Assembly: GCF_000235425.2 (NCBI RefSeq)
Contig: NZ_KI912266.1
Coordinates: 3,167,671 to 3,231,670, forward strand
DNA length: 64,000 nucleotides
Source: Pseudofrankia saprophytica
GTDB taxonomy: Bacteria; Actinomycetota; Actinomycetes; Frankiales; Frankiaceae
Reading direction: 5' to 3'
The position numbers and the translations under genes are program-made. This document shows, piece by piece, positions 9,421 to 29,772 of the stretch (positions are counted from its first letter, which is position 1; the number at the start of each line of letters is the position of its first letter). A model generated the notes under the pieces. That model saw nothing but the letters and a program-made list of their open reading frames with translations. It was not told where the DNA came from and did not search any database.

Positions 9421-9449
9421 TTGTATACGACTCTTGTTGTTGTATACAA
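9421..9449. promoter_or_regulatory. Operator pair TTGTATACGA / TTGTATACAA between divergent operons
   Basis: Two palindromes lie at 9421-9430 (one mismatch) and 9440-9449 (perfect), centres 19 bp apart. They sit between the cupin gene (minus) and the DUF35 gene (plus). The same palindrome occurs in pairs at 11426-11460, 18005-18038 and 29744-29772. GntR-family FCD regulators often bind sites with a GTATAC-like core. A promoter overlapping the sites is plausible but cannot be placed. Confidence 0.8.
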
Positions 9450-9668
9450 GCAAGTCGACGTGCGCAAGAGGGGATCGACCTTGACCGGCGAGTTGGTGAG
9501 CGCGATCCGCAGGTGTGGCGAGAACAAGTCCCCGGTGGGTGCCGACCTGACGCACATGCGATGGCCCGGCCCGGGAAGGGCCAGCCTGAGATGGCGGGGG
9601 AGCGGTAGCCAGGACGCCGCATCGGCGCGCGGCGGTCCGGGCGGGCGTGGCGCGCGAGGCGGGCGCAC

Positions 9669-10097
9669 ATGAAGCCCGCGGGCGGCCCGGTTGCCGCTGA
9701 GGGCCGGCCGGTGCCGGTGGTCGACGATGGCAGCCGTGACTTCTGGCTCGGCGGTGCCGGCGGGCAGCTTCTGATCAGGGCCTGCACCGGGTGCGACCGG
9801 TTGTTTCATCCGCCGGCGCCTATCTGCCCGCACTGCTGGTCCCGTGCGGTCACGTACCGGGCGGTGTCCGGGCGGGGGGCGGTCGAGTCCTACACGGTGG
9901 TGCGTCGGCCGTGGGTGCCGGGCTATGAGCCGCCCTATGTCGTGGCTCGGGTGGTGCTGGCCGAGCAGCCGGACCTGCGCCTGTTGACCAACGTGGTCGG
10001 CTGTGACGTCGAGGCGGTCACCACCGGCATGCCGGTCGAGGTGACCTTTGAGCGGCGAGGTGACGTGTTCGTGCCCATGTTCAGGCCGGTCGCATGA
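9669..10097 (+). CDS. Zn-ribbon/OB-fold DUF35 protein
   Basis: A 142-residue DUF35 protein. The zinc ribbon is C39-x2-C42 with C53-x2-C56 (ACTGC and CPHC), followed by an OB fold (GAVESYTVVRRPW, VARVVLAEQPDLRLLTNVVG). Proteins of this family are partners of thiolase-like enzymes, and known partnerships include retro-aldol cleavage of acyl-CoA side chains in steroid degradation. Its TGA overlaps the ATG of the thiolase-like gene (ATGA), the usual arrangement for a heteromeric complex. Confidence 0.88.
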   Translation: MKPAGGPVAAEGRPVPVVDDGSRDFWLGGAGGQLLIRACTGCDRLFHPPAPICPHCWSRAVTYRAVSGRGAVESYTVVRRPWVPGYEPPYVVARVVLAEQPDLRLLTNVVGCDVEAVTTGMPVEVTFERRGDVFVPMFRPVA

Positions 10098-11257
10098 CCG
10101 CCGAACGCCAGGCGATCATCTCCGGCATCGGAAGGTCGGCTACCGGCAGACGCCTCAACCAGTCCGCGACCGAGCTGACCCTGGACGCCTGCCTCCAGGC
10201 CGTCGCGGACGCCGGCCTGACTCCGCGCGAGATCGACGGTCTCGCGTCCTGGCCCGACTACCAGGCCCCGTTCGGCTTCGGCGGGCCCCGCGTCGGCGAG
10301 CTGCACTCGCTTCTGCGGCTGGACCTGTCGTGGATTCTCGGCTGCGGCGACGGCGCCAACGTCACCGGCATCCTCGGCATCGCCGCGCACGCGGTAGCGG
10401 CCGGGCTCGCGCGCCACGTGCTGGTCTACCGCACCGTCACCGAGGCGACCGCGCAGGGCGCCGGCCGGCGCCCGGCCGTGATGGCCGCGCCCGGAGCGGC
10501 CGCGGACTGGAAGTCCGCCTACGGGGTCGGCTCGCCCGCGCAGCTCGCCGCGCTGTGGGCCCGTCACCACTTCGACCGCTACGGCACCACCCGAGACCAG
10601 CTCGGCTGGGTCGCGGTGAACAACCGGCGCCATGCCGCCGCCCATCCGACCGCGATCTACCGTGAGCCGATGACGATCGAGGACTACCTCGCGGGGCGGA
10701 TGATCAGTGAACCGCTGTGCGTCTTCGACTGCGACGTCCCGGCCGACGGGTCGATCGCCTTCGTCATCTCTCACGTCGACCACCGCCGTGACGTCGACCG
10801 GCCCGTCTACTTCGAAGCCGTGGGCGGTGGGCGACCCATGACCTCCAGCTGGGAGTTCTGGCCCGACCTCGACGTCATGGCGGCGATGCCGGCGGCCCAG
10901 CAGATGTGGTCGCGCACCTCCTTGCGGCCCGCGGACGTCGACGTCGCCGGCATCTACGACGGGTTCAGCATCTTCGTCCTGTACTGGCTGGAGGCGCTGG
11001 GCTTCTGCGGCCGGGGCGAGTCGGGACCGTTCGTCGAGGGTGGCAAACGGATCTCCCTTGACGGTGAGCTGCCGCTCAACACGTCCGGCGGCCAGCTGTC
11101 GGAAGGCCGTTACCTCGGCTTCGGCCTGGCCTACGAGGCCTTCCTGCAGCTCCGCGGCCAGGCCGGTGCCCGTCAGGTCGCGGACGCGGAGGTCGGTCTG
11201 GTCACCGGTGGCGGCGGCCCGCTCGCACAGGCCTTCCTCTTCGCCAACGACCGCTGA
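10094..11257 (+). CDS. Thiolase-like protein (lipid-transfer / retro-aldolase type)
   Basis: A 387-residue thiolase-superfamily protein. The C-terminal segment NTSGGQLSEGRYLGFG corresponds to the NxxGGxLxxGHPxG block of thiolases, but GHP is replaced by GRY, so the catalytic His of true thiolases is missing. The nucleophilic-Cys region reads ILGCGDGAN rather than the canonical CASG-type motif. This pattern, with an overlapping DUF35 gene, resembles the Ltp2-type aldolases that split an acyl-CoA side chain without CoA attack. The assignment as an aldolase partner is inference. Confidence 0.8.
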   Translation: MTAERQAIISGIGRSATGRRLNQSATELTLDACLQAVADAGLTPREIDGLASWPDYQAPFGFGGPRVGELHSLLRLDLSWILGCGDGANVTGILGIAAHAVAAGLARHVLVYRTVTEATAQGAGRRPAVMAAPGAAADWKSAYGVGSPAQLAALWARHHFDRYGTTRDQLGWVAVNNRRHAAAHPTAIYREPMTIEDYLAGRMISEPLCVFDCDVPADGSIAFVISHVDHRRDVDRPVYFEAVGGGRPMTSSWEFWPDLDVMAAMPAAQQMWSRTSLRPADVDVAGIYDGFSIFVLYWLEALGFCGRGESGPFVEGGKRISLDGELPLNTSGGQLSEGRYLGFGLAYEAFLQLRGQAGARQVADAEVGLVTGGGGPLAQAFLFANDR

Positions 11258-11425
11258 ATCAACGTGGCTGGGGAGGGCCTGATCGGGCTGCCTCACGACC
11301 AGGCCGGCGCCGATGGGCGACGTCATGCTCGTGACCTGCCGGCCTCATCCTTTGCGTGATCCACCGGCGGTGCCGACGCGGGTGACGCTGGCGGCCAGAT
11401 CCATCCCTTGCGCATCTCCCCCGAG

Positions 11426-11460
11426 TTGTATACAAATGAGAACCCGGGTCTTGTATACAA
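11426..11460. promoter_or_regulatory. Operator pair TTGTATACAA x2 before the E1 operon
   Basis: Two perfect palindromes at 11426-11435 and 11451-11460, centres 25 bp apart, ending about 97 bp before the E1 alpha start. Read on the minus strand the spacer carries CCCGGGTTCT, nearly the same as the CCGGGTTCT between the sites at 18005-18038, so this pair is inverted relative to that one. Confidence 0.82.
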
Positions 11461-11557: not shown

Positions 11558-12556
11558 GTGAAGACGGATCGAACCGCGGGCGTGTCGCCGAGCGTGCAGC
11601 GCCGGTTGTACGAGCTGATGGTGCTGATGAAGGCGGCCGACGACCGGTTGGGCAGGGGGATCGCGTCGGGCGAGCTGCAGTGCGTGTACTGGCCGTCACG
11701 GGGGCAGGAGGCGATCGCCGCGGCAATGGGGGTGTGTCTTCGGCCGGATGACCAGCTGGTCACGACCTATCGGGGGTTGCACGACCTGATCGGTAAGGGT
11801 GTGCCGCTGGTGGAGATCTACGGCGAGATGCTGGGCCGGCGGGTGGGGGCAGGCCGGGGCAAGGGCGGGACGATGCACATCGCCCGCCCGGAGTCTGGCG
11901 TCATGCTGTCGACCGGGATCGTGGGAGCCGGACCACCGGTAGCGGTGGGGTTGGCGATGGCCGCACGGCGCAAGGGTCTCGATCGGGTCGCCGTCGCGAG
12001 CTTCGGTGACGGGGCGACCAACACCGGTTCGTTCCATGAGGCCGCGAACATGGCGGCGCTGTGGGACCTACCGCTGGTGCTGGTGTGCCAGAACAACCTG
12101 TATGCCGAGATGACGGCCACTGAGCACACGATGAAGATTGCTCACGTCGCGGATCGGGCGGCTGGGTATGGGATGCCGGGCATCCGCGTGGACGGTAACG
12201 ATCCGCTTGCGCTTGTCGCCGCGTTGACGGGGGCGGTGGAGCGGGCGCGCGGCGGGGGCGGGCCGACGCTGCTGGAGTGTGTGACGTTTCGGTTCCGTGG
12301 TCACTACTTCGGGGATCCGATGGCGTATATCCCGGCCGAGCAGTTGGCTGCCGCTATGGCGGCTGATCCCATCCCGCGGTTCCGGTCTCTGCAGCTCTCG
12401 GCCGGGATCTGCGATGAGCAGGACCTCGCGGGCATCGAGGCGGCCGCCGTCGCGGCGGTCGAGGAGGCGGTGGCCACTGTGTTGGCGGCACCGGTCCCGT
12501 CTTTGGACGAGCTTGATCGTGATGTGTATGCCGACTCGCGTAACTGCCCGGCATAG
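11558..12556 (+). CDS. Thiamine-diphosphate dehydrogenase E1 component, alpha subunit
   Basis: A 332-residue E1 alpha of the pyruvate/branched-chain/acetoin dehydrogenase type. The ThDP motif begins GDGATN at residues 150-155 and closes with NN at 179-180, and GRGKGGTMH (about 99-107) matches the conserved loop before it. The GTG at 11558 was chosen because GGGAAGGGG sits seven bases upstream. It pairs with the E1 beta gene that follows. The enzyme should decarboxylate a 2-oxo acid, or cleave an acetoin-like ketol, and pass the acyl group to a lipoyl arm. It opens the operon directly downstream of an operator pair. Confidence 0.9.
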   Translation: MKTDRTAGVSPSVQRRLYELMVLMKAADDRLGRGIASGELQCVYWPSRGQEAIAAAMGVCLRPDDQLVTTYRGLHDLIGKGVPLVEIYGEMLGRRVGAGRGKGGTMHIARPESGVMLSTGIVGAGPPVAVGLAMAARRKGLDRVAVASFGDGATNTGSFHEAANMAALWDLPLVLVCQNNLYAEMTATEHTMKIAHVADRAAGYGMPGIRVDGNDPLALVAALTGAVERARGGGGPTLLECVTFRFRGHYFGDPMAYIPAEQLAAAMAADPIPRFRSLQLSAGICDEQDLAGIEAAAVAAVEEAVATVLAAPVPSLDELDRDVYADSRNCPA

Positions 12557-12589
12557 CGGCCGCCCCGGCCGGTACCTACCTGTGTAGAG

Positions 12590-13606
12590 GTGGACGTGGA
12601 CGAACGACGGATGACGATGACCGAGGCGTTGAACCTGGCGTTAGATCAGGCGTTGGCGCGTGACGAGGGCGTTTTCCTGTTGGGCGAGGATATCGCCGAT
12701 CCGGGGGCGTCTGGTCCGACGAAAGGCCTGTCGACGAAGTACGGCGTCGACCGGGTGCTGGATACGCCGATCTCGGAGGCGGCGATCGTGGGCGCGGCCA
12801 TCGGCGCGGCGATGGAGGGGTTCCGCCCCGTCGCCGAGATTATGATTATGGATTTTATCGGGATCGCGGCCGATCAGCTCGTCAACCATGCGGCGAAGCT
12901 GCGGTTCATGACCGGTGGGCGGACGAGCTCGCCTATCACGGTGCGTACGCAGGTGTATGGCGGGATCGGGACCGGGGCGACGCATTCACAGTCGTTGGAG
13001 GCTTGGTTCATGCATATCCCGGGGTTGAAGGTGATCGTGCCCTCGACGCCGCGAGACGGCAAGGGCCTGCTGACGTCGGCGATCTTCGATGACGACCCGT
13101 GCCTGTTTGTCGAGACGATCCGGTTGCGCGGCCAGCGCGGGATGGTCCCGACCGATCCGGCGTTCGCGATCCCGCTTGGTCAGGCGGAGGTGAAGCGGCC
13201 GGGTACTGACGTCACGTTGGTCAGCTATGGCCGGGGAGTGGTCGAGGCGCTCGGGGCGGCCACCAGGCTCGAGAAGGAGGGGATCAGCGCCGAGGTGCTC
13301 GACCTGCGCACCCTGGTCCCGCTTGACGTGCCGGCGATGCTCGAGTCCGTGGGCCGCACGAGGCGGGCCGTCGTCGTGCACGACGCCGTCCAGTTCGCGG
13401 GGCCTGGCGCGGAGATCGCCTCGATCCTGCACAGCGAGCTTTTCGGCGTGTTGGCGGCGCCGGTGGAGCGGGTGGGTGCCCGATTCGTGCCGGCTCCGGC
13501 GGCACCGGCGCTCGAGTCCCAGATATATCCGAGCGCTGAGCGCATCGTCGCGGCTGTTGGTCGGACGCTGCGGGGCGCGACGGTTAAGGCAGGCGTTCAT
13601 GACTGA
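12590..13606 (+). CDS. Thiamine-diphosphate dehydrogenase E1 component, beta subunit
   Basis: A 338-residue transketolase-like E1 beta. MTMTEALNLALDQAL, VFLLGEDI, TPISEAAIVGAAIGAAM and the C-terminal half DLRTLVPLD with VVVHDAVQFAG are standard for the family. GTG at 12590 or 12596 are both possible starts, and AGAGG lies just before. It forms the E1 heterotetramer with the preceding gene. Its last codons overlap the start of the lipoyl-domain gene by 8 bp, so the three products are likely made together. Confidence 0.9.
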   Translation: MDVDERRMTMTEALNLALDQALARDEGVFLLGEDIADPGASGPTKGLSTKYGVDRVLDTPISEAAIVGAAIGAAMEGFRPVAEIMIMDFIGIAADQLVNHAAKLRFMTGGRTSSPITVRTQVYGGIGTGATHSQSLEAWFMHIPGLKVIVPSTPRDGKGLLTSAIFDDDPCLFVETIRLRGQRGMVPTDPAFAIPLGQAEVKRPGTDVTLVSYGRGVVEALGAATRLEKEGISAEVLDLRTLVPLDVPAMLESVGRTRRAVVVHDAVQFAGPGAEIASILHSELFGVLAAPVERVGARFVPAPAAPALESQIYPSAERIVAAVGRTLRGATVKAGVHD

Positions 13607-13841
13607 CTTTACGATCCGTATCCCTCGGATATCGGTGGCGATCTCGGAGTCGGAGCTCACGGAGCTGCTCGTCGACGAGGGAGGGCATGTCACCGAGGGC
13701 GCCCCGCTGTTCGTCATCGCCACGGACAAGGCCGAGAACGAGGTCGCCGCTGGTGCGTCCGGCACCGTCCAGTGGAGCGGTGAGGTCGAGACGGTCTACG
13801 AGATCGGGGCCGAGATCGGGACTATCCGCACATCGGGCTGA
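13599..13841 (+). CDS. Free-standing biotinyl/lipoyl attachment domain protein
   Basis: An 80-residue protein that is only a lipoyl domain: FTIRIPRISVAISESELTEL, then the attachment loop ATDKAENEVAAG with the candidate lipoyl-lysine in DKA, then a return strand. No peripheral-subunit-binding domain and no E2 acyltransferase domain follow, and neither E2 nor E3 genes are in the window. It overlaps the E1 beta gene. It could be a mobile acyl carrier fed by E1, using an E2 encoded elsewhere or handing the acyl group to another acceptor. Confidence 0.82.
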   Translation: MTDFTIRIPRISVAISESELTELLVDEGGHVTEGAPLFVIATDKAENEVAAGASGTVQWSGEVETVYEIGAEIGTIRTSG

Positions 13842-13868
13842 CGCCCACGCGGAAGGAGATTGCTGTCG

Positions 13869-15212
13869 ATGGCCATCACCGACGATCGACGACCCGTCGC
13901 CACTCGCGATGTGCCGTACGCGATGCGGGACCGGTTACACGTGCCTCGCGAGCGCTACTACGACCGGGAGTTCTTCGAGCTGGAGAAGGAGCACCTGTGG
14001 CCGCGGGTCTGGCAGATGGCGTGCCGGGCCGAGGAGATCCCCCGGCCCGGGGACTTCGTCGAGTACGAGATCTGCGACCAGTCGATTCTGGTGGTGCGTC
14101 AGCCTGACGGGTCGGTCAAGGCGTTCCACAACGCGTGCCGTCATCGGGCGACCCAGCTGTGCAAGGGTTCCGGGCGGCTGCCTGGCGGGCAGATCGTGTG
14201 CCCGTTCCACGGCTGGCGCTGGAACCTCGACGGCACCAACTCCTTCGTGTACGGCGCCGACGGGTTCGCGCCGGAGTCTCTGCGCCCGGACGACATCCGG
14301 CTGGTCGAATGCAAGGTCGAGGAGTGGGGGGCCTGCGTCTGGGTCAACATGGACCCGGGTGCCCGCCCGCTACGGGAGGCGCTCGCCCCGGCGGCGGACG
14401 CGCTGGACGCGGTCGGCGCCGAGAACATGCGTGTGTGGTGGTGGAAGGAGACCATCCTCAACGCAAACTGGAAGACCGCCCAGGAGGCTTTCCACGAGGG
14501 CTACCACGTGATGTCCACGCATCCGCAGCTCACCTTCGGCCAAGGTGAGGACTACCCGTACTCCAACGTCGAGTACATCCCGCTCGAGAACGGCCACGGC
14601 CGCTTCCTGGGGCGGTTCGACCCGACCGCGGGCGGCATCTCCCAGGGGCGGGGCGCGGAGGCTTTCCTGTCGCGGTCGCAGACGTTGTGGGAAGGGCAGG
14701 ACGCGATGACGCTGGAACGCGACCTGCATGTCTTCCGGGGGATGCGCAACCGGGTCCCGCCCGGCGAGGACTTCGCGACCGCGGCCATCAAGGCGCTGTT
14801 CGACTACGCCGAGGGCGCCGGCATACCGCTGCGCCCGACGCCGGAGGGCATGCGGATGTGGGGCGGCGAGGTGTTCCTGTTCCCCAACTTCATCGTGATC
14901 CCCCAGTTCGGCAACGCGCTGTCCTACCGGATCCGTCCCCACAATGACGATCCCGAGTGGTGCCGCTTCGAGGTGTGGTCGTTGACCATGTACCCGGAGG
15001 GCGAGGAGCCCGGCCGGCCGAAGCTGAAGGGCCGCTTCGCCGCCGACGACACCGAGAACTGGGGCCTGATCCCGCGCCAGGACTTCAGCAACATCGAGCG
15101 CCAGCAACGCGGCCTGCATTCCCGGAGCTTCCGACAGCATCGGCTGGCCACGGAATGGGAGCCGATCATCAGCAACATGCACGTCGAGCTCGACCGCTAC
15201 CTCGCCGGCTGA
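13869..15212 (+). CDS. Rieske-type aromatic-ring-hydroxylating oxygenase, large subunit
   Basis: A 447-residue oxygenase. The Rieske centre is C90-x-H92 with C111-x2-H114. The mononuclear iron site lies in NWKTAQEAFHEGYHVMSTHP (from 200), with H213 and H218 as ligands and E210 near the bridging position. AGGAG lies about ten bases before the ATG at 13869. A ferredoxin gene three positions downstream can deliver electrons. No reductase is adjacent. Such enzymes dihydroxylate or monohydroxylate aromatic and alicyclic substrates or demethylate ethers. Confidence 0.92.
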   Translation: MAITDDRRPVATRDVPYAMRDRLHVPRERYYDREFFELEKEHLWPRVWQMACRAEEIPRPGDFVEYEICDQSILVVRQPDGSVKAFHNACRHRATQLCKGSGRLPGGQIVCPFHGWRWNLDGTNSFVYGADGFAPESLRPDDIRLVECKVEEWGACVWVNMDPGARPLREALAPAADALDAVGAENMRVWWWKETILNANWKTAQEAFHEGYHVMSTHPQLTFGQGEDYPYSNVEYIPLENGHGRFLGRFDPTAGGISQGRGAEAFLSRSQTLWEGQDAMTLERDLHVFRGMRNRVPPGEDFATAAIKALFDYAEGAGIPLRPTPEGMRMWGGEVFLFPNFIVIPQFGNALSYRIRPHNDDPEWCRFEVWSLTMYPEGEEPGRPKLKGRFAADDTENWGLIPRQDFSNIERQQRGLHSRSFRQHRLATEWEPIISNMHVELDRYLAG

Positions 15213-15256
15213 AGGCGCCCACTCCACAACCATCGACTTCATCGGAGGGGTTCACC

Positions 15257-16939
15257 GTGGCGGACTCGGAGTACACGACCGACGTCGTCGTCGTGGGATC
15301 GGGCGGCGGGCTGGCCGGCGCCCTGACCGCGGCGGCGAGCGGGCTGGAAACGCTGGTGATAGAGAAGCAGCCGATGCTCGGCGGCTCGACGGCCATGTCG
15401 GGCGGCGTCCTGTGGCTGCCGAACAACCCGCTCATGCAGGACGAGGGCGTTCCCGACAGCCTCGAGGACGCCTTGGCGTACTTCGACTCGGTCGTCGGCG
15501 ACGTGGGTCCCGCGTCGTCGCCCGAGCGTCGGCTCGCCTACATCACCGAGGGCGCGAACATGGTCCGCTTCCTGCGGGAGCGGGGGCTGCGGTTCGAACG
15601 GTGCGAAGGCTACAGCGACTACTACGCACAGATGGCGGGTATCCGTGGTGGCAACGCCCGCGGGCGCTCCATCGAACCCGCCGTGACCAACGGCAAGGAA
15701 CTCGGGCCGTGGCTCGAGAAGCTGATGCCGGGCATGACGGTCGCGATGGGAATCGTCGTGATGACCCGCGAGGCGGCCACGCTGTCGATGGTCAAACGGA
15801 GGCCCAGGGCCATGCGCACCGCCGCACGCGTCGGCACACGGACAGCTGTCGGCCGGCTGCGGCGCCAGGCCCGCCTGGCCAACGGCGCGGCGCTGATCGC
15901 CCAGACCCTGAAAGCCGCCCTCGCGGCCGGGGCATCGGTGCGGACGAGCACCAGCCTGGTCGACCTCATCATGGAGGATGGCCGGGTGGCCGGCGTGGTG
16001 GCCCACCGGGACGGGCAGACCGTGCGGATCCACGCCCGCCGCGCCGTGCTGCTCAGCTCGGGCGGCTTCGCCCGCAACGCGCAGATGAGACAGAAATACT
16101 CGAAGCAACCGAACGACGCCTCGTGGACCATCGCCAACCCAGGCGACACCGGCGAAGCGATCGAGGCCGCCATCCACCACGGCGCCGCCGTCGACCTCAT
16201 GGACGAGGCACTGTGGATCCCGGCCTCCATGCAGCCCAGCGGCCGGCCGAGCATGCACAACGGCGAGCGCGGCAAACCCGGCTCGATCATCGTCGACAAG
16301 GGCGGCAAACGGTACTTCAACGAGGCAGTCTCCTACATGGAGGCCGGGCGGCAGATGTACGCCCACAACACCGACGGCGGCTCCATCCCCAGTTGGCTCA
16401 TCATCGACTCCCGCCACCGCGCCCGCTACCTGTTCGCCTTCCGTGCGAAGACCCCCGACGAGTGGCTCACCAGCGGCTACCTGAAGAAGGCCGACACGAT
16501 CGAACAGCTCGCCGAGGCCTGCGGCATCGACCCCGCCGGGCTGACGGTCACGGTGAAGCGGTTCAACACGTACGCGGAGCAGGGCAATGACCCGGACTTC
16601 CACCGCGGCGACGGCGCCCACGAGCGCTACCAGGGCGATTACGGCAGCAAGCCGAACGCCTCGCTCGGACCCCTCGCCAAGCCGCCGTTCTACGCCGTCG
16701 AGATCTATCCCAGCGACGTGGGCACCAGCGGCGGCCTGCTGTGCGACGAGCACGCCCGCGTCCTCGACGCCAACCACGACCCCATCCCCGGCCTCTACGC
16801 CGCCGGCAACTGCACCGCCTCGGTGATGGGCCGCACCTACCCCGGCGCCGGCGCGAGCATCGGCGGCAGCTTCGTGTTCTCCTACATCGGCATGAAACAC
16901 GCCGCGCTCGTCGCCTCCGGAGACAGCGTCGCCCGGTGA
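15257..16939 (+). CDS. FAD-binding dehydrogenase of the 3-ketosteroid delta-1-dehydrogenase type
   Basis: A 560-residue FAD-binding-2 family flavoprotein. The dinucleotide motif GSGGGLAG is at residues 14-21, followed by GGSTAMSGGVLWLPNN (42-57), a signature of KstD-like delta-1 dehydrogenases. The C terminus has the family's second FAD segment with YPGAGASIGGSFVF. GGAGGGG precedes the GTG at 15257. It should introduce a double bond next to a ring ketone. The steroid label comes from the family, and the real substrate may be another cyclic ketone. The stop overlaps the ferredoxin start. Confidence 0.88.
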   Translation: MADSEYTTDVVVVGSGGGLAGALTAAASGLETLVIEKQPMLGGSTAMSGGVLWLPNNPLMQDEGVPDSLEDALAYFDSVVGDVGPASSPERRLAYITEGANMVRFLRERGLRFERCEGYSDYYAQMAGIRGGNARGRSIEPAVTNGKELGPWLEKLMPGMTVAMGIVVMTREAATLSMVKRRPRAMRTAARVGTRTAVGRLRRQARLANGAALIAQTLKAALAAGASVRTSTSLVDLIMEDGRVAGVVAHRDGQTVRIHARRAVLLSSGGFARNAQMRQKYSKQPNDASWTIANPGDTGEAIEAAIHHGAAVDLMDEALWIPASMQPSGRPSMHNGERGKPGSIIVDKGGKRYFNEAVSYMEAGRQMYAHNTDGGSIPSWLIIDSRHRARYLFAFRAKTPDEWLTSGYLKKADTIEQLAEACGIDPAGLTVTVKRFNTYAEQGNDPDFHRGDGAHERYQGDYGSKPNASLGPLAKPPFYAVEIYPSDVGTSGGLLCDEHARVLDANHDPIPGLYAAGNCTASVMGRTYPGAGASIGGSFVFSYIGMKHAALVASGDSVAR

Positions 16940-17313
16940 CCGAACAGCGCGGCCGGCACGGGCGGGCACCGGTGGTGCACGTCGACCCCGTCGGGGCCGA
17001 CCTCGAGCTTGAGCCCGGTGAGACGATCATCGAAGCCGCCTGGCGTCTCGGGTACCACTGGCCGACAACCTGTTATGGCCAGGCGACGTGCACGGTGTGT
17101 CATCTCGAGGTGCTCGCCGGCGACGAGCACCTCACCCCCGCCGACGAAGAGGAGCGGCACGCCCTCGAGAACCGGCTTCCCGGGGCTGATCGCCGTGATC
17201 TCGCCCGGCTACGACTGGCCTGCCGGGCGCGGGCAACCGGCGACGTCACCGTACGGAAAAAGGGCGTTCGACGTCAGGAGACCGTGCCGATTCCCCCGGC
17301 TGGGCCACTGTGA
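16936..17313 (+). CDS. Plant-type [2Fe-2S] ferredoxin
   Basis: A 125-residue ferredoxin beginning at a GTG that overlaps the preceding TGA. Cluster cysteines are C46, C52, C55 and C96 (C-x5-C-x2-C-x40-C), slightly longer in the first loop than the usual C-x4-C. It probably carries electrons to the Rieske oxygenase or from the flavoprotein of the same operon. The C-terminal tail after residue 100 is basic and lacks known motifs. Confidence 0.87.
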   Translation: MTEQRGRHGRAPVVHVDPVGADLELEPGETIIEAAWRLGYHWPTTCYGQATCTVCHLEVLAGDEHLTPADEEERHALENRLPGADRRDLARLRLACRARATGDVTVRKKGVRRQETVPIPPAGPL

Positions 17314-17367
17314 GGCAGGACGTCGGACTGCCCGAAATGGAGGAATGGAGACGTCGAGGAAGGTGCG

Positions 17368-17889
17368 ATGACACAGAGCGCGAGCTGCGAGCAGGCAGCG
17401 ATCCAGCAGCTGCTCGACAAGCAGGCGATTCGCGAGGCGATTCTGCGGTACTGCCGGGGCGTGGACCGGTGCGACCCGGATCTCATCAGCTCGGCGTATC
17501 ACCCCGACGCGATCGACATCCATGGCCGCCAGCGCTTCACGGGCGAAACCGTCGGGCAAGGCATCGTGGACCTCGTCCGCTCGGCGAAAGTCGCGATGAA
17601 CCACATCACGAATCAGCTCATCACCTTTCACGGCGATGGGACTGCCGGCTGCGAGACGTACTTCACCGTGTGGCAGAGCGCTGAGACCGAGGGCGGCGAT
17701 CGCCTCGTCGTCGCGCTCGGGCGATACGTCGACCGCTTCGAACGCCGCGCGGGCGGGTGGAAGATCGCACACCGGCTTGTGATCGTCGAGCTGACCCGCG
17801 TCATCCCTCCGGGCGACCTCATGAAGCCGCCTCTCGGTCTTGGTTCCCGGGACCGGAACGACCCGTCATACGCGGCGCTCGTGCCCTGA
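17368..17889 (+). CDS. SnoaL/NTF2-like protein
   Basis: A 173-residue protein of the SnoaL-4 type: DKQAIREAILRYCRGVDRCDPDLI, HPDAIDIHG, then NHITNQLITFHGDGTAGCETYF and a final WKIAHRLVIVE strand. Members include small cyclases, isomerases, dehydratases and the beta subunits of ring-hydroxylating dioxygenases. Its position as the last gene of the Rieske operon allows an accessory role there. GAGGAAGG precedes the ATG. Confidence 0.82.
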   Translation: MTQSASCEQAAIQQLLDKQAIREAILRYCRGVDRCDPDLISSAYHPDAIDIHGRQRFTGETVGQGIVDLVRSAKVAMNHITNQLITFHGDGTAGCETYFTVWQSAETEGGDRLVVALGRYVDRFERRAGGWKIAHRLVIVELTRVIPPGDLMKPPLGLGSRDRNDPSYAALVP

Positions 17890-19314: not shown

Positions 19315-19328
19315 AAGGGGTACTCGCC

Positions 19329-21581: not shown

Positions 21582-22424
21582 ATGGGTGTTGAAACAGCGC
21601 CCGCTGAGGAGCTCTCGGCAGTCGGCGGTATCAGGCTGGAAAAGGTGACGGGGACCATCGGTGCGATCGTTCATGGGGTGGATGTTCATGTCTCCCACGA
21701 CGACGATGTGACATCGGCACTGCGGCGGCTGTTACCTGAGCACGGCGTACTGTTCTTCTATTCTGATTCGGACATCGGCGAGGAGACCTTCTCGTCATTC
21801 GCCACAGCCTTCGGTGAGCTCTACGTCTACCCTTACGGGAAAGGCCCGGGGCAGTTTGTGACCGAGGAGGGCGCCGACGCGGTACGACTTCGGACGAGTT
21901 CCTGGCACACGGACGGGAGCTCGCAGGAGAGGCCACCCCTAGCGGCGCTCCTGTCTCCGGTCCAGGTTCCGTCCTTCGGCGGGGACACGATGTGGTCGAG
22001 CATGACCGCGGCGTTCGACGCCCTTTCGTCCCGCTACCAGCGGTTGCTCGATGGCATGGAGGCCGTGCACAGCACCGCCGCGGTGGCGCGGTCCCACGGC
22101 GACGGCGGGCGTGCCTTCGGCGAAGGGGAACGCCACGTGCATCCCGTCGTCATCACCGATCCGGTGACCCGGCGCAGGGCTCTCTACGTCAACTCGGTCT
22201 ACACCGAGCGGCTCGTCGGGGTGAGTGAGCGCGAGAACGAGGCGCTCCTGCGGATGCTGTACGAACACGTCAACACGCCGGAGTTCCACGTGCGCCTGCG
22301 GTGGCGGCCGAACATGATCGCCGTGTGGGAGGAGCGGGTAACGCAACATCGCGCGATCGCCGACTACACGGAACGGCGAATCCTGCGCCGCATCACCATC
22401 AGCGGCGATCCCCCGGCGGCCTGA
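21582..22424 (+). CDS. TauD/TfdA-family 2-oxoglutarate/Fe(II) dioxygenase (second copy type)
   Basis: A 280-residue dioxygenase. The iron ligands are H109-x-D111 (SSWHTDGS) and the distal H256 in WEERVTQHRAIADY, with R265/R266 for 2-oxoglutarate. FGGDTMWSSMTAAFDALS is a standard TauD segment. GAGAGG precedes the ATG. It has the same length as the protein at 3082-3924 but is not closely similar, so the locus carries two different members rather than a recent duplicate. It begins a plus-strand run with BKACE, SDR and aldehyde dehydrogenase genes. Confidence 0.88.
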   Translation: MGVETAPAEELSAVGGIRLEKVTGTIGAIVHGVDVHVSHDDDVTSALRRLLPEHGVLFFYSDSDIGEETFSSFATAFGELYVYPYGKGPGQFVTEEGADAVRLRTSSWHTDGSSQERPPLAALLSPVQVPSFGGDTMWSSMTAAFDALSSRYQRLLDGMEAVHSTAAVARSHGDGGRAFGEGERHVHPVVITDPVTRRRALYVNSVYTERLVGVSERENEALLRMLYEHVNTPEFHVRLRWRPNMIAVWEERVTQHRAIADYTERRILRRITISGDPPAA

Positions 22425-22758
22425 CCGCGTTCCGAGTACTTCGGCGGCTCCTGCGGCGCTGGACCTCTGGTATGCCTTCTCCCGCCCTCGCCTGCCCGCG
22501 GCCATGAACCCGAGGCGGGTCAGGAGCGGCTCGCGCGAGCCGTCTCGCCGGGATGTAGAGCACAACGAAGCGCCGTCCGTGCCGTTGGAGGACACGGCAT
22601 GACATGCCATGACGACCGGGGGCGAGGAGTGGCTGGTAAAGCATCGAAACGTCGCCTTCCACTTCACCCTGGCGGCGCCGATTTCGGGTTCCACTTATGG
22701 CTTCGACCACAAGGCCGGCCGATGTGACGCCAGCCGGCGTGGCGACCTGGAGATGCAT

Positions 22759-23658
22759 ATGACAAAGCAGAAGCTCATCATCGAGGTCCGGATCAACGAG
22801 GGAACGCCGAGAGATATCAGCCCACACGTTCCCTACAGCCCTGAGGAGATCGCCGACCAGGCGATCGAGTGCTGGCGGCGGGGTGCGTCCGTCGTGCACT
22901 ACCACGCCCGGGACCCCGAAACGGGCGCCCAGTCCTCGGAGGTGGACCTGTACGCGGACGTGGTGCGGCGGATCAAGCAGGAGAGCGATCTCATCACGTT
23001 TCCGACGCTGGGCGCGAGCATGTTGCCCACCGTCGAAGAGCGGGTGGCACACATCCTCGAGATGGCGAAAGATCCGGCGACCAGACCCGACGGCATCCCG
23101 GTCGACATGCTGACCACGAACCTGGACCGGTACGACTCGAGACGCAGAGAATTCGCCAGCGTTGACCGGGTCTACCTGAACACCACGAAGATGCTCACCG
23201 ACCTCTGTGAGACCGTGAGCGCCGTCGGGGTGCGTCCGGTGCCGATGATGTGGAACATCGCCGGGGTGCGGCTCACCGAGGCGTTTCTCGAGATGGGCCT
23301 GTACCAGGAGCCGCTGTTTTGCGAGCTGACGGTGTTCGCGGACCCGTTCGTCAGCTACGGACATCCGGCCACGATCAGAGGTCTGCACGCGCTGCTCGAC
23401 TTCGTTCCGCCCCGGGCGAACTGGCAATGGCTCACGAGTGTGATCGGCGGCAACGCGTTCCCGGTGCTCGCCGGCGCGATCGAGGCCGGCGGCCACGTCG
23501 CCATCGGCGTCGCCGACCACTCGTACCCCGAGCTCGGCCTCCCCACGAATGCCGAGCTCGTCGCCCGTGTCGTCGAGATGGCGCGGAGCATGGGCCGGGA
23601 GGTTGCCACGGCGGCGGAGGCCCGCGAGATGCTAGGCCTGCCGGGAGGTGAGGTTTAG
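22759..23658 (+). CDS. BKACE-family (DUF849) beta-keto acid cleavage enzyme
   Basis: A 299-residue TIM-barrel protein. The zinc ligands H47-x-H49 appear in VVHYHARD, and SPEEIADQAIECWRRGASVVH is typical of DUF849. These enzymes condense a beta-keto acid with acetyl-CoA and cleave it to a CoA ester plus acetoacetate or an analogue, so a beta-keto acid is expected in the pathway. The ATG at 22759 was chosen because GGAG sits six bases before it; the open frame begins at 22609 but its first 50 residues do not look like the family. The 334 bp upstream (22425-22758) hold no supported gene. Confidence 0.88.
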   Translation: MTKQKLIIEVRINEGTPRDISPHVPYSPEEIADQAIECWRRGASVVHYHARDPETGAQSSEVDLYADVVRRIKQESDLITFPTLGASMLPTVEERVAHILEMAKDPATRPDGIPVDMLTTNLDRYDSRRREFASVDRVYLNTTKMLTDLCETVSAVGVRPVPMMWNIAGVRLTEAFLEMGLYQEPLFCELTVFADPFVSYGHPATIRGLHALLDFVPPRANWQWLTSVIGGNAFPVLAGAIEAGGHVAIGVADHSYPELGLPTNAELVARVVEMARSMGREVATAAEAREMLGLPGGEV

Positions 23659-23660
23659 CC

Positions 23661-24401
23661 ATGGGCATCCTCGACGGCAAAGTAGCGGTGATCACCGGTG
23701 CGGGTTCGGGGATCGCGAAGGCGTCGGCGAAGGTCTTCGTGCGAGAAGGGGCCAAGGTGGTGGCCGCCGACATCAGCGGCGCGGAGAAGGACACCGCTGC
23801 CGAGGTCGGGGAAGGCGTGCTTCCCGTCCACTGCGACGTGTCGAAGGACGCCGACGTGGCGGCGATGTTCCAGGCCGCGCTGCGGGAGTTCGGCCGTGTG
23901 GACGCGGTGCTCAACGTGGCCGGCACACACGGGCGCCGGCCCCCTGAGGTGCTGACGGTCGACGAGTTCGACAAGATGACCGCCGTCAACCTGCGGGGCG
24001 TCCTCCTCGTCACGCAACATGCGATTCCGGCCATGCTCGAGGGCGGCGGCGGCGCGTTCGTCAACGTCTCGTCGGTCTCCGCGATCAACGTCCAGAGCCG
24101 CACGTCGTTCATGTACGCGGCCGCCAAGTCCGGCGTCCACGCCCTCACCAAGTCCGTCGCCGTCGAGTACGGTCCCCGGGGCATCAGGGCGAACGCCATC
24201 GCACCCGGCTTCACCTTCACAGAGATCATGACCATGGGACCGGACCTGCTGCGCGAGATGAGCTCGAAGGCGGCGCTGAACCGAGCCGGTCACCCGCAGG
24301 AGCTCGCCGAGGTCGCGGCGTTCCTCGCCTCCGACCGAGCCTCGTTCCTGACCGGCGTGATCATACCGGTGGATGGCGGGTGGTCGGCGAAGCTTGCCTG
24401 A
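23661..24401 (+). CDS. SDR-family NAD(P)-dependent oxidoreductase
   Basis: A 246-residue classical SDR: TGAGSGIA at 12-19, CDV at 58-60, NVAG at 85-88, N110, and the catalytic set near S138, Y152 and K156. The end GVIIPVDGGW is standard. It starts two bases after the BKACE stop, with GGAGGTGA as binding site, so it is co-transcribed. It probably oxidises a hydroxy intermediate to a keto form for the cleavage enzyme. Confidence 0.92.
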   Translation: MGILDGKVAVITGAGSGIAKASAKVFVREGAKVVAADISGAEKDTAAEVGEGVLPVHCDVSKDADVAAMFQAALREFGRVDAVLNVAGTHGRRPPEVLTVDEFDKMTAVNLRGVLLVTQHAIPAMLEGGGGAFVNVSSVSAINVQSRTSFMYAAAKSGVHALTKSVAVEYGPRGIRANAIAPGFTFTEIMTMGPDLLREMSSKAALNRAGHPQELAEVAAFLASDRASFLTGVIIPVDGGWSAKLA

Positions 24402-24632
24402 CAGCCGGACGGCCTGCCGTCCGGTCGAGGCGGCCGCGCGGCTCGACCTTCGGCATCATGCCCGGCGGCAGCGCGTCCGGCGGAAGCGGACGCCGCTATC
24501 GGGTCGGACATCAATCCGCCAAAGCGCCGCGGGCGGGTATGGGGCGCCTTGCTTGGATCAGACCCAGTCTCGCTGCCCGGAGTGTGGGAGGCTGGAGACA
24601 ACGCCGCAAACCGGTAGGGAAAGGACAAGGAT

Positions 24633-26135
24633 ATGGCGACGGTCACCGAGTCGAAGCTCAGTGTCGGCGAAACGAGCCTCTATATCGACGGTGAACTGCG
24701 AGGCGCCGCCGGGGGCCGTACCTATGACAATATCAGCCCTTGGACCGGAGAGGTCGTAGGCAAATCTGCCGATGCCTCCGCCGAGGATGTCGGCGATGCC
24801 GTCTCGGCCGCGCGCCGGGCCTTTGACACCACCGACTGGTCAACCAATCATGCCAAGCGCCTGGAACTGGTGACGAAACTCTACGACCTGTTCCGCGCCA
24901 ACACGGACCGCTTAGTCCAGATTGCCCGTGACGAAGCAGGGTCGACCCTCTTCATCGCCAGAAACGTCCAGATCCTCCAGTCGCTCGCGGGCTACCAGGA
25001 CCTCATCGACGCGTTCGCCAAGGTCCGCTGGACGGAAGATCGCGGCAGACGCGGCCCGGAGGGACGTGTCAGCCACCGCATTCAGATGCGCGAGGCAGCA
25101 GGTGTGGTTGGAGCAATCACACCGTTCAACGTACCCTTCTACGTCAACATCGAAAAGGTTGTTTCGGCCTTGCTGTCGGGCTGCACGGTTGTGCTGAAGC
25201 CCGCCCCCGACACGCCTGCTCTCGGGGCGATCTGGGGCGAGATGGCAGCCGAGGCGGGCTTTCCGGCTGGCGTGCTGAACGTCGTGACCGGCAGCGATCC
25301 CGCCCTGGGTGAACTGCTGGTCACTGATCCCCGCGTCGATCTCATCGCCTTCACCGGCTCGTCGGCGGTCGGAAAGCGGATCATGGAAAAGGGCGCATCG
25401 ACGCTGAAGCGTGTGCTGCTCGAACTCGGCGGCAAGTCCGCCAAGATCATCCTCGATGACGTGGAGGACTTTGCGGGCGAGGTGGCTTCTTCCGTCATCG
25501 CGGGCCATTCGGGTCAGGGCTGTACGGTACGCTCGCGTCTGCTTGTGCCCAGGAACCGCTACGCCGAGGCGATCGAAATCCTGAAGTCGACCTATGCGGC
25601 CTACGACGGCAAGTGGGGCCACTATGACGATCCCCGGGATCCCATGGGCCCGGTCATCTCGCGGCGGCAGATGGAACGCATCAAGGCTTATATCGATGTC
25701 GGCCTGCAGGAGGGCGCTACCCTGATCGCCGGCGGGCGGATCGGCGCGGCGAAGCGGGGCTTCTTCATCGAACCCACCTGCTTTGCCGACGTGACCAACG
25801 ACATGGCCATCGCCCGGGAGGAGATCTTCGGGCCTGTGCTTGTCGTCATGCCCTACGAGGACGAGGACGACGCCGTGCGTATCGCTAATGACAGCGAATA
25901 TGGCCTTTCGGGTGAGGTGTCGTCCGGCAGCATCGAGCGCGCGATCAAGCTCGCCGCTCGTTTCCGTAGCGGTACGGTCAGCATCAACGGCGGCCGCTGC
26001 GTCGACGGAGACATTCCCTTCGGCGGTTACAAGTCGAGCGGCCTCGGCCGCTCCTGGGGTGTCGAAGGCATCGAGGAGTACACCGAGACGAAGATCGTCT
26101 CTTACCTGGTGCCGGGCGTATCCGCCGGCGCCTGA
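24633..26135 (+). CDS. NAD(P)-dependent aldehyde dehydrogenase
   Basis: A 500-residue aldehyde dehydrogenase with N166 (ITPFN), K189 (VLKPAP), GSSAVG at 242-247, general base E264 (LLELGG) and nucleophile C297 (GQGCTV). It should oxidise an aldehyde released by the pathway to an acid or CoA ester. AAGGA precedes the ATG, 231 bp after the SDR. Its codon use differs from its neighbours: TAT, AAT, AAA and TCT are frequent in the first 60 codons. This suggests recent acquisition, perhaps from a lower-GC proteobacterium. Confidence 0.92.
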   Translation: MATVTESKLSVGETSLYIDGELRGAAGGRTYDNISPWTGEVVGKSADASAEDVGDAVSAARRAFDTTDWSTNHAKRLELVTKLYDLFRANTDRLVQIARDEAGSTLFIARNVQILQSLAGYQDLIDAFAKVRWTEDRGRRGPEGRVSHRIQMREAAGVVGAITPFNVPFYVNIEKVVSALLSGCTVVLKPAPDTPALGAIWGEMAAEAGFPAGVLNVVTGSDPALGELLVTDPRVDLIAFTGSSAVGKRIMEKGASTLKRVLLELGGKSAKIILDDVEDFAGEVASSVIAGHSGQGCTVRSRLLVPRNRYAEAIEILKSTYAAYDGKWGHYDDPRDPMGPVISRRQMERIKAYIDVGLQEGATLIAGGRIGAAKRGFFIEPTCFADVTNDMAIAREEIFGPVLVVMPYEDEDDAVRIANDSEYGLSGEVSSGSIERAIKLAARFRSGTVSINGGRCVDGDIPFGGYKSSGLGRSWGVEGIEEYTETKIVSYLVPGVSAGA

Positions 26136-26195: not shown

Positions 26196-26239
26196 GTGGA
26201 GCACGTGTCTGGGACGCTCGCAGGATTTCGGCTGGGCGT

Positions 26240-27369: not shown

Positions 27370-28230
27370 TCACTTCTCCGCGAAGAACGCGAAGTCTTCC
27401 AGCACCTGCTGCTGGTGCGCCCGCACCACATCCCCCATCTCCGGATGGGTGATGATGTGGGCGCGGTTCGCGCGAATGCCTCGCACGACAATCGGCCCCA
27501 CGGCCTCGATCGGCAGCATTCCCGGCACCGCGCCCGGCGACAGTACCCGACCCGCCATCGGATCGGCCATCGGTCCACCGAAGCGCTCCGGTCGGTGCCG
27601 GGCCGTGGTCGTGACCAGGTTGGTCGCTACCGCTCCGGGACACAGCACCGACACTCCGATGCCGTCGGACGCCAGCTCGTGCCGCAGCATGTTGCCGTAT
27701 CCGACCACGGCGTGCTTCAACGTGGTGTACACGCCGGTTTCCGTTCCGCCGGTCTGCTCCGTGGGCAGCGCCACCAGGCCGGCCATCGATGACGTGAGGA
27801 CGATGTGCGCCCCGTCGTCGTGCGCACGCAGAAGTGGCAGGAACGCGTCGACGACGCGTACGGCGGCCGTGAGGTGGAACTCGGTGAACCACGCCCACAC
27901 CTGTTCGCTGGACGCCGCGGCCGGAGCGCTGGTGTGGACGCCGACCGTGTTCACGAGGACGTGGACGTCGCCCAGATCATCCGCCGCCCCGGCGGCCAGC
28001 GTCGCCAACGAATCGCGATCGGTCGCGTCCACGCGCGCGGAAAGCGCGTCGCCGCCGCGCCCCGCGATATCGTCGCGTACCGCCCTCGCGTTCTCGGGGT
28101 CAATGTCGGCGACGAGGACCCGCATGCCCTCACCGGCGAGACCCAAGGCGATCCCGCGCCCGATCCCGCTGCCGCCCCCGACGACCACCGCGCCGCGTCC
28201 GTCGAGCTTGTCCATGGTCGTCATACTCAT
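27370..28230 (-). CDS. SDR-family oxidoreductase
   Basis: A 286-residue SDR: GGGSGIG at 18-24, DIDPENARAV after the second strand, NTVG at 94-97 in place of NNAG, Ser at about 147, Y168-x3-K172. The C-terminal third is longer than in FabG-type enzymes and contains MADPMAGRVLSPG, seen in SDRs acting on bulky substrates. Its ATG overlaps the TGA of the tandem CMD gene (ATGA). It is the third gene of the minus-strand operon downstream of the operator pair at 29744. Confidence 0.88.
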   Translation of the reverse strand: MSMTTMDKLDGRGAVVVGGGSGIGRGIALGLAGEGMRVLVADIDPENARAVRDDIAGRGGDALSARVDATDRDSLATLAAGAADDLGDVHVLVNTVGVHTSAPAAASSEQVWAWFTEFHLTAAVRVVDAFLPLLRAHDDGAHIVLTSSMAGLVALPTEQTGGTETGVYTTLKHAVVGYGNMLRHELASDGIGVSVLCPGAVATNLVTTTARHRPERFGGPMADPMAGRVLSPGAVPGMLPIEAVGPIVVRGIRANRAHIITHPEMGDVVRAHQQQVLEDFAFFAEK

Positions 28231-29132
28231 CTGCCTTCTTGGGTGGCGGTGCGTTGAAGGATGGCGTGTCGGGCGACGTTGGTGGCGTTGTGCCATCCCG
28301 ATCCGCCGGCGTAGACGCCGGTGTGGGCGATCACTTCGTAGATCTGGTCGGGCGTGATCCCGAGATTGAGCGCGTTATTGACGTGGATGTGCAGCTCGTC
28401 GTTTTCCACGAGAACCTGAAGGACGGCCATCGTGATGAAGCTCCGGGTGGGCAGCTCCAGTCCAGGCCGGCCCCACACTTCGCCATAGCCGTAGTCGGCG
28501 GTGATCCAGGCGAGGTCCTGTTCGACGGGGAGGCGGCCGGGCCTTGCCGCGGGGAAGGGGACGCCGGGCAGCTGTGTGAGGAGCGGAGCGTTCTCGCCGT
28601 GACCGATGCGCCCGACGCCGAGGATGGCGACAATCCGGGTTCTGGCGGCCCGCCGCTCGGTGTCATCCATCGGCGGTTTCGGTTCGCCCGGGGTGGCGTT
28701 GCCGGCGGGGAGGATCCCGCGCGCGACGAAGACCTCGCCCGCGACGTCGGCGGCGTTCTCCCAGGCGGACAGGCCGGCATAGACGCCGGCATGCAGGAGG
28801 GCTTCGTGGATCTGTTCTGGGGTGATGCCGATGTTCACCGCGCTGTTGATGTGGCGGTAGAGCTGGTCGGAGCGGCCGAGGGCGGTCAGGGCGGCCATCG
28901 TGATGAAGCAGCGGGCTTTCAGCTCGAGGCCGGGGCGGCCCCAGATCTCGTATTCATAGAGTTGGGCACCGCGTATTTCGGCCTCGATGGGGAGCGCTGT
29001 CGCGGGTCGAAGGTGCCCGCCGCGCCGGCGGGGAGGTAACGGCGGTGCGTCCGGGGAGGTTCCAATCCGGTCGATGCCGAGTTCGCGGCGCACGCGTTGG
29101 TAGGCCGCTTCACGTTCCGCCTGGGTCATCAT
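28227..29132 (-). CDS. Tandem carboxymuconolactone-decarboxylase-family protein
   Basis: A 301-residue protein made of two CMD repeats. Repeat 1 (about 55-145) has WGRPGLELKARCFITMAALTAL and NIGITPEQIHEALLHAGVYAG; repeat 2 (about 215-295) has WGRPGLELPTRSFITMAVLQVL and NLGITPDQIYEVIAHTGVYAG. The Cys in repeat 1 is Ser in repeat 2. A fused pair is longer than usual CMD proteins of about 120-180 residues. The role is probably decarboxylation or isomerisation of a lactone-like intermediate, but this is not shown by the sequence. Confidence 0.87.
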   Translation of the reverse strand: MMTQAEREAAYQRVRRELGIDRIGTSPDAPPLPPRRRGGHLRPATALPIEAEIRGAQLYEYEIWGRPGLELKARCFITMAALTALGRSDQLYRHINSAVNIGITPEQIHEALLHAGVYAGLSAWENAADVAGEVFVARGILPAGNATPGEPKPPMDDTERRAARTRIVAILGVGRIGHGENAPLLTQLPGVPFPAARPGRLPVEQDLAWITADYGYGEVWGRPGLELPTRSFITMAVLQVLVENDELHIHVNNALNLGITPDQIYEVIAHTGVYAGGSGWHNATNVARHAILQRTATQEGR

Positions 29133-29193
29133 GCCGACCTGCCTGGCCGGTCGAGAGGCTTTCGGGCAGGGACCTGCATGCTGGGCGTCTCCT

Positions 29194-29715
29194 CTACTTC
29201 AGTTCGGCGATCTCGGCGGTGGGCAGCACGGTCGCGATCCGCCACAGCCCGAGCCAGCTGTTGGGGAACACACCGGCGTCGACAAGCGCGGCGTGCGCCC
29301 CTGGCTCGGGGTCGTCGCACGCGTCGGAGCAGACGGTGACTCGGTAGCCGACGTCGACGGCCCACCGGGTGGTGGACAGCACCGTCCCCCCGGTTGCCAC
29401 GCCCGCGACGATGAGGTGACTGATCCCCGACTGTCGTAGAAGGTCGTGGAGACCGGTGCCGGCGAAGGCGCCGATGGTGGTCTTGCCCAGCACGTACTCG
29501 CCTTCCACGGGTGCCACCGACGGGTGGATGTCGTCGCGCATCGGCTTCGGCACCACATGAACGACGGGTACGCCCAGCTGGCGGGCCAGGCCCACTGCGT
29601 GGCCGGCCCGATCCACGACCGTGGGGTCATGGCAGAAGCGCTCGACGATGTACTGGGTGAAGTCCAGGACCACCAAGGCGGTAGTCCCCGCTGTCGGCGC
29701 CGTGGACAGCGTCAT
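29194..29715 (-). CDS. Isochorismatase-like cysteine hydrolase family protein lacking the Cys
   Basis: A 173-residue isochorismatase-fold protein. The triad positions are D18 (VVLDF), K78 (LGKTTIGAF) and, where Cys is expected in G-x2-T-x2-C-V, Thr111 in GVATGGTV. The Cys nucleophile is therefore absent, as in non-hydrolase or altered members. The ATG at 29715 follows GGAGGG, while an upstream frame runs through the operators and is not likely to be translated. It is the first gene of the operon controlled by the pair at 29744-29772. Confidence 0.83.
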   Translation of the reverse strand: MTLSTAPTAGTTALVVLDFTQYIVERFCHDPTVVDRAGHAVGLARQLGVPVVHVVPKPMRDDIHPSVAPVEGEYVLGKTTIGAFAGTGLHDLLRQSGISHLIVAGVATGGTVLSTTRWAVDVGYRVTVCSDACDDPEPGAHAALVDAGVFPNSWLGLWRIATVLPTAEIAELK

Positions 29716-29743
29716 CGGTCCCTCCATGAAGTTCGTCGACATC

Positions 29744-29772
29744 TTGTATACATTGGTTCTTGTTGTATACAA
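29744..29772. promoter_or_regulatory. Operator pair TTGTATACAT / TTGTATACAA
   Basis: Sites at 29744-29753 (one mismatch) and 29763-29772 (perfect), centres 19 bp apart, the same spacing as the pair at 9421. The nearer site is 28 bp before the isochorismatase-like start, close enough to overlap its promoter. The spacer carries GGTTCTTGTTG, also found between the sites at 18005-18038. Confidence 0.82.

Follow-up and report, generated by a model that had tools for sequence, protein, structure and literature searches.

Paired palindromes as probable operators of a GntR-FCD regulator in a catabolic locus of Pseudofrankia saprophytica

We analysed a stretch of 64,000 nucleotides from the actinomycete Pseudofrankia saprophytica (contig NZ_KI912266.1, positions 3,167,671 to 3,231,670; hereafter the window), in which the 10-base-pair (bp) palindrome TTGTATACAA recurs in pairs at the heads of several operons. 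These palindromes are very probably the operators of a GntR-FCD protein encoded at 20564-21286 of the window, which would repress a single degradation pathway and be released by one of its intermediates. On the comparisons of genomes described here, conservation of this GntR-FCD regulon in at least three relatives is well-supported.

A search of the window for TTGTATACAA with up to one mismatch returned exactly eight matches, six of them perfect and two with a single mismatch (at 9421, TTGTATACGA, and at 29744, TTGTATACAT). The chance level, from 100 dinucleotide shuffles of the window, has a mean of 0.04 and a largest value of 2. The eight sites form four pairs, P1 to P4, all of which lie between genes by predicted starts, at 29–220 bp from a gene start. 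Number, perfection and position of the sites thus agree exactly with a sequence-only reading of this DNA, as does their placement at intergenic operon starts. The pairs, with spacings counted from start to start, and the proposed regulator are as follows.

P1, 9421..9449: TTGTATACGA and TTGTATACAA, spacing 19 bp; between the leftward 8429-9277 gene set and the rightward DUF35-thiolase genes.
P2, 11426..11460: two perfect copies, spacing 25 bp; 98 bp upstream of the E1-alpha gene.
P3, 18005..18038: two perfect copies, spacing 24 bp; 56 bp upstream of the coenzyme A (CoA)-transferase, amidohydrolase and GntR genes.
P4, 29744..29772: TTGTATACAT and TTGTATACAA, spacing 19 bp; 29 bp upstream of a leftward isochorismatase-like gene.
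Regulator, 20564-21286, + strand: GntR-family protein of 240 amino acids with a GntR winged helix and an FCD effector domain; the proposed repressor.

The sequence-only reading had expected such sites to be concentrated in this locus, and they are. The genome of P. saprophytica (9,978,592 bases in two contigs) holds 15 distinct places within one mismatch of the palindrome, eight in the window and seven at 6.62–7.61 Mb, and all six perfect copies are inside the 20-kb locus. The probability that five random sites would join the first in such a stretch, computed post hoc, is about 3.5e-14. None of the seven remote copies has a partner with up to two mismatches 15–30 bp away, and five of the seven have their mismatch in the core; we therefore rejected them as members of the regulon. 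Six of the seven overlap long stop-free frames, which is weak evidence in GC-rich DNA.

The distribution of the paired sites follows that of the regulator gene. Among 196 genomes surveyed (that of P. saprophytica and others of its genus, family and class), the GntR protein has an orthologue at E ≤ 1e-40 in four: P. saprophytica itself (G000), G006, which belongs to the same genus, G014 and G017. The paired pattern TTGTATACAAN{8,16}GTATACAA is present in the identical set of four, and its reversed control gave zero in every one of the 196. Chance agreement of two sets of four among 196 has a probability of 1.7e-8, a figure that kinship makes too generous. The exact 10-mer TTGTATACAA occurs in three of ten relatives, precisely those that carry the GntR gene (six, four and four places). 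Twelve of these 14 places share a contig with a GntR orthologue, and the remaining two, from G014 and G017, precede BKACE-TauD-SDR-E1 genes. Among 396 genomes of the phylum only that of P. saprophytica holds an orthologue at E ≤ 1e-45. The Rieske protein of the locus is more widespread than the regulator, with matches in 10 of the 196 genomes at E ≤ 1e-100. The co-occurrence of pairs and orthologue in the same four genomes supports the earlier proposals that the local GntR protein is the regulator and that one regulator governs one catabolic system.

Proteins of the window were mapped on six contigs of relatives by tblastn, keeping matches of at least 60 bits and the best match per place, with two-mismatch sites shown only near another site. 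In G014, G017 and G006, the gene for the isochorismatase and that for the CoA-transferase each have a pair in front; in G014 and G017 pairs also stand before BKACE-TauD-SDR-E1, and in G006 before DUF35-thiolase and between TauD and CoA-transferase. Operon order is reshuffled among the relatives, yet the mapped operators remain at operon heads and the same genes lie behind them, which further backs the single-system proposal. In G006 the DUF35 orthologue is preceded by a pair that matches P1 both in its 19-bp spacing and in its TTGTATACGA variant. When the isochorismatase promoter (P4) of four species is aligned, both palindromes are kept at spacings of 19, 23, 23 and 27 bp; at the CoA-transferase promoter (P3) of four species the palindromes are again kept, at spacings of 24, 23 and 24 bp, with a triple site in the other.

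Changes within the regulon sites of up to one mismatch are confined to the outer bases. The relatives' loci and the window together provide 38 sites with up to one mismatch: 20 are perfect, 18 have a change in the outer four bases, and none departs from the central GTATAC. The seven remote sites, in contrast, have five core and two outer changes (Fisher p = 4e-4 against the regulon sites). An operator pair also precedes a carboxylesterase gene (PF00135) on contig C97 of G006 (L030, 1824-1857); this gene has no match among the window proteins and is a possible extra member of the regulon in that species.

The genome of P. saprophytica contains an internal control in the form of a second enzyme cluster, at 5.91–5.94 Mb of contig C1, whose E1-alpha to ferredoxin proteins (E1-alpha, E1-beta, lipoyl, Rieske, flavoprotein and ferredoxin, as in the window) are 75–87% identical to those of the window. 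This cluster differs in carrying an alpha/beta hydrolase, a FAA hydrolase and a P450 in addition, and its regulator genes are of AraC and TetR type. No TTGTATACAA within one mismatch was found in its 36 kb (C1:5912000-5948000; L044, L045), tblastn with the GntR protein found no match there, and a palindrome search of the cluster gave just GC-rich words among the top ones listed. For similar clusters in G006 (C5), G014 (C182) and G020 (C36), the stretches examined hold no site even when two mismatches are allowed. The operator thus tracks the regulator gene and not the enzymes. An IS240-type transposase gene was seen near the paralogous cluster.

A number of observations weigh against this interpretation. 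At up to one mismatch the reversed control pattern likewise occurs at 15 places per strand genome-wide, so that the argument is one of clustering, pairing and perfection and not of site count; as an exact word it was counted once or twice in six of the ten relatives. The paired pattern catches three of the four window pairs, P2 being missed because its spacer is too long. As G014 and G017 appear to be closely related sister genomes, the four genomes amount to fewer than four independent events. Two of the 38 sites in the core comparison, those on contig C97, were selected through a core-bearing pair; with these removed, 36 sites still give zero core changes. Five sites with up to one mismatch on contig C266 of G006 are unpartnered, which makes pairing usual and not universal. 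A shorter pair, TGTATACN{11,20}TGTATAC, occurs at one place in G001 and one in G003, two genomes that lack the GntR gene, and at a further place in P. saprophytica, at 5.46 Mb. Finally, that the protein would act by repression and not by activation is argued from the habit of its family.

In P. saprophytica and G001 the TGTATAC pairs (L029, around 4994-5024, and L031, around 3034-3064) adjoin another isochorismatase-type gene. None of six proteins scanned near these two pairs is a GntR, and we set the pairs aside; they may belong to a second regulator whose operator is related.

The proposed regulator has a clear domain structure, with an N-terminal GntR winged helix (PF00392, 56.5 bits against a curated cut-off of 27) and a C-terminal FCD effector domain (PF07729, 66.4 bits against 24.3). 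The recognition stretch SRIPMREA is common to three of the orthologues and reads SRIPVREA in the fourth. A single-sequence AlphaFold model of the protein has a mean predicted local distance difference test (pLDDT) score of 44.9. The closest precedent is Atu1419 of Agrobacterium fabrum with its 10-mer ATGTATACAT. Atu1419 is a GntR/FCD protein of the VanR group that represses a hydroxycinnamate region; its palindrome overlaps -10 boxes, its tetramer is able to bridge two sites, Arg45 reads the G at position 3, and the contacts to DNA are made by Glu34, Arg45, Thr46, Arg49 and Gly66, as given in the part of that report considered (PMC7797058). Residues E44, R55 and R59 of the window protein are spaced as Glu34, Arg45 and Arg49, a correspondence read from spacing and from the aligned range given below, not from a printed alignment. 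By the same spacing Thr46 becomes Ile56, and the position of Gly66 is occupied by Tyr76 with glycines at 77-78. The alignment with PDB chain 6z74_A is limited to residues 24-111 (E = 5.4e-8), which would be a further difference if that chain is Atu1419.

The two systems share, as far as that part of the Atu1419 account extends, a GntR-FCD regulator, a 10-bp palindrome with a GTATAC core, control of several promoters of one degradation region, the regulator's own included (for a plant compound in the case of Atu1419), and two sites per region at -10 boxes, the latter position being proposed here (PMC7797058). They differ in the outer bases of the operator and in the distance between sites, which in A. 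fabrum is 190 or 109 bp with looping and in the window system 18–27 bp. A literature search for TGTATACA with GntR led to the Atu1419 work, one for the exact 10-mer gave no GntR operator by title among the matches listed, and one for GntR operators in Frankia gave, judged by the listing, none on the subject.

It is improbable, in our judgement, that the operators belong to a different regulator, such as the MarR protein encoded at 30397-31170 or a remote GntR, with the local GntR a mere neighbour. GntR-like genes do look common, with 61 loose first-look candidates in the P. saprophytica genome of which 14 were scored, and palindromes of the GT-AC form are common to the FadR subfamily, as the part of a comparative-genomics compilation considered describes (PMC4494728). 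Against this stand the presence of the local GntR orthologue and the paired pattern in the same four genomes and the residues spaced like Glu34, Arg45 and Arg49 of Atu1419. The MarR protein was rejected as a candidate: it has no tblastn match of at least 60 bits in the six mapped contigs of the relatives. One weak match was found elsewhere, on contig C150 of G014 (29% identity, 50 bits).

Less probable again is that the repeats are core promoter elements and not repressor sites. TATACA does resemble a -10 hexamer and TTGTAT a -35 element, the two are 16 bp apart at the 19-bp spacing, and at the CoA-transferase promoter of four species the gene-proximal site is the better conserved. Yet each site has a 10-bp symmetry, and the distance within pairs ranges over 18–27 bp; the presence of the sites follows that of one regulator gene, and the paralogous cluster manages without them. 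A promoter scan of 9000-28999, a range that contains all pairs but P4, listed no promoter at P1 to P3 or at P5, a further pair described below. The roles of promoter element and operator may coexist. That a functionless AT-rich 10-mer spread to the four intergenic regions by chance or as a mobile repeat would fit the equal genome totals of palindrome and reversed control, but we give it next to no weight, since all six perfect copies lie in 20 kb, the sites are paired at operon heads, and they are conserved in relatives with diverged spacers.

A weak, degenerate fifth pair was missed by the sequence-only reading.

P5, 21417..21445: TTGTACACAC and TTGAATGCAA, spacing 19 bp; 137 bp upstream of the TauD gene.

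A two-mismatch search of the window gave four further sites, of which those at 21417 and 21436 make up this pair, located between the GntR and TauD genes with the spacing of P1 and P4. Scored with a matrix built solely from 30 sites of the relatives, P5 is the next-best window pair after the known four (17.95), a score that none of 300 simulated windows attained, their best being 16.9. The GTATAC core is broken in both sites, which counts against the proposed regulon here, and promoter alignment with the relatives did not confirm the pair; for these two reasons we grade P5 as a probable and not a firm operator pair. It may control the TauD-BKACE-SDR-aldehyde dehydrogenase genes. In the alignment the aldehyde dehydrogenase gene of the window has no site directly upstream, whereas that of G006 does have a pair.

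We infer that one homodimer of the GntR protein would sit on each 10-bp palindrome, so that a pair would hold two dimers or one tetramer. With spacings of 18–27 bp, the protein is unlikely to hold a pair rigidly along a single helical face. The operator is AT-rich and probably covers part of the -10 region (TATACA), in which case the bound protein would block RNA polymerase and keep the pathway operons off. The gene order, with the regulator gene behind P3 after those for the CoA-transferase and amidohydrolase, suggests that GntR would repress its own operon too. An acid or acyl-CoA of the pathway, probably the latter, would bind the FCD domain and free the protein from DNA, and the operons would then switch on together.

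Two further bodies of work bear on this model. AlkR, an FCD protein of VanR type, represses a gene for a catabolic monooxygenase and is released by long-chain acyl-CoA (PMC12042122). In the part of the AlkR paper considered, the resemblance extends to a GT-AC palindrome that has AT flanks and sits at the -10 region, a position that in the window system is proposed; the differences are one 13-bp principal site, ATTGTCAGACAAT, with odd spacing of GT and AC, a single promoter with two weak extra sites (PMC12042122), and a substrate other than that of the window pathway. Atu1419 and AlkR together suggest by analogy repression on each pair and release by an acid or acyl-CoA; for Atu1419 itself, the portion considered gives methylene-tetrahydrofolate as effector, unlike the pathway acid or acyl-CoA proposed here. 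Comparative genomics of FadR-subfamily regulons gave the consensus NyGTM-N0-1-KACNy (PMC4494728), into which TTGTATACAA fits, its GTATAC corresponding to N0. The string GTATAC itself was not found in the main text of that compilation, and the portion considered does not single out paired operators as a hallmark (PMC4494728).

The genes of the locus, with families assigned by Pfam and NCBIfam searches, are listed here.

2272..9277, - strand: genes behind P1, encoding a family-less 282-amino-acid protein, a flavin monooxygenase, a CMD protein, an AMP-ligase, a TauD and an SDR; putative operon extent.
8429-9277, - strand: the family-less protein of 282 amino acids, which heads the leftward P1 genes.
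9669..11257, + strand: DUF35 (ChsH2 OB-fold) protein and Ltp2-like thiolase-fold protein, the latter at 10094-11257.
11558..17889, + strand: E1-alpha, E1-beta, small lipoyl protein, Rieske oxygenase alpha, flavoprotein, 2Fe-2S ferredoxin and SnoaL-like protein.
18094-19314, + strand: CoA-transferase family III, preceding the amidohydrolase and GntR genes.
19329-20453, + strand: amidohydrolase-fold protein, PtmU3/DitZ-like, preceding the GntR gene.
21582..26135, + strand: TauD/TfdA dioxygenase, BKACE, SDR and aldehyde dehydrogenase, perhaps under P5.
26240-27181, - strand: Suc/Fer-like gene, next on the strand of the P4 genes.
27370..29715, - strand: isochorismatase-like protein, double CMD-domain protein and SDR, behind P4.

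The earlier labels for the neighbours (DUF35, E1-alpha, CoA-transferase and isochorismatase-like) held, with the exception of 'cupin' for 8429-9277. That protein has no Pfam or NCBIfam match, and its best PDB matches are at chance level (E = 0.14 and 0.34), for which reason we dropped the label; a cupin fold beyond the reach of sequence is possible. A single-sequence AlphaFold model of it has a pLDDT of 31.6. The protein occurs at E ≤ 1e-20 in four of the 196 genomes, the same set that holds the GntR gene and operator pairs, and is possibly a pathway-specific enzyme without a known family. Of the leftward P1 genes, the filtered tblastn list for the relatives' contigs shows this first one, the SDR and, as distant matches, the AMP-ligase, and no others.

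To the right of the regulon are an integrase-core gene (40960-41664, - strand) and an IS4/5-type transposase gene (57085-57897, + strand). The window also contains two adjacent, very large GC-rich genes on the - strand, one for 1919 amino acids (46775-52534) with a TIR domain, TPR repeats and a weak STAND-NTPase match, and one for 1241 amino acids (52559-56284) with a protein kinase and WD40-type repeats.

Several of the encoded enzymes hint at the kind of substrate. The amidohydrolase-fold protein (19329-20453) is closest in PDB to PtmU3 and DitZ. PtmU3 has been described as a diiron enzyme that beta-hydroxylates CoA-ligated substrates in diterpenoid biosynthesis; the metal ligands of AibH2, to which the part of the report considered calls PtmU3 similar, are Asp-x-His, His, Glu, Asp and His (PMC7782822). 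Six residues of these ligand types in the window protein align by eye with PtmU3, and a like activity is predicted. The closest PDB entry to the thiolase-fold protein (10094-11257) is 6ok1, a 'lipid-transfer protein', which is the TcLtp2 complex (PMC12329534). The catalytic residues of TcLtp2 are Tyr294, which belongs to its YDHF motif, and Tyr344 (PMC12329534); the window protein has YDGF, which retains the first Tyr, and an Arg at the position of Tyr344 with a Tyr next to it. The flavoprotein of the 11558-17889 set matches the NCBIfam model for 3-ketosteroid-delta1-dehydrogenase (NF009478) with 875.8 bits against a cut-off of 789.

The combination of PtmU3-like, Ltp2-like, CoA-transferase and DUF35 proteins suggests activation with CoA, beta-hydroxylation and a retro-aldol step. 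A polycyclic isoprenoid acid might first receive CoA, after which the PtmU3-like enzyme would beta-hydroxylate it and the DUF35/Ltp2-like pair would cleave it in a retro-aldol reaction, with oxidation of the rings last. These predicted functions suggest that the pathway removes the side chain of a steroid- or terpenoid-like acid. A literature search combining platensimycin, retro-aldol and CoA gave nothing on the subject. A more far-reaching proposal, which we offer as a tentative possibility and think unlikely to hold in full, is that a tetrameric GntR clamps the close but loosely spaced pairs (18–27 bp, and hence on no single helical face) and so coordinates a new pathway in which a PtmU3/DitZ-like diiron hydroxylase and a DUF35/Ltp2-like retro-aldolase take the acid side chain off a plant terpenoid or steroid, the enzyme module having been re-wired between GntR and AraC control within one genome.

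Control of this kind is ordinary, and the regulon itself would be a further GntR-FCD case. What the paired operators add is that gene clusters which seem separate are joined in one catabolic system and that its likely regulator is named. Paired TTGTATACAA sites would also offer a reporter design for finding the substrate, and the near-identical enzyme module beside other regulators in the same genome would provide a natural comparison for a change of control.

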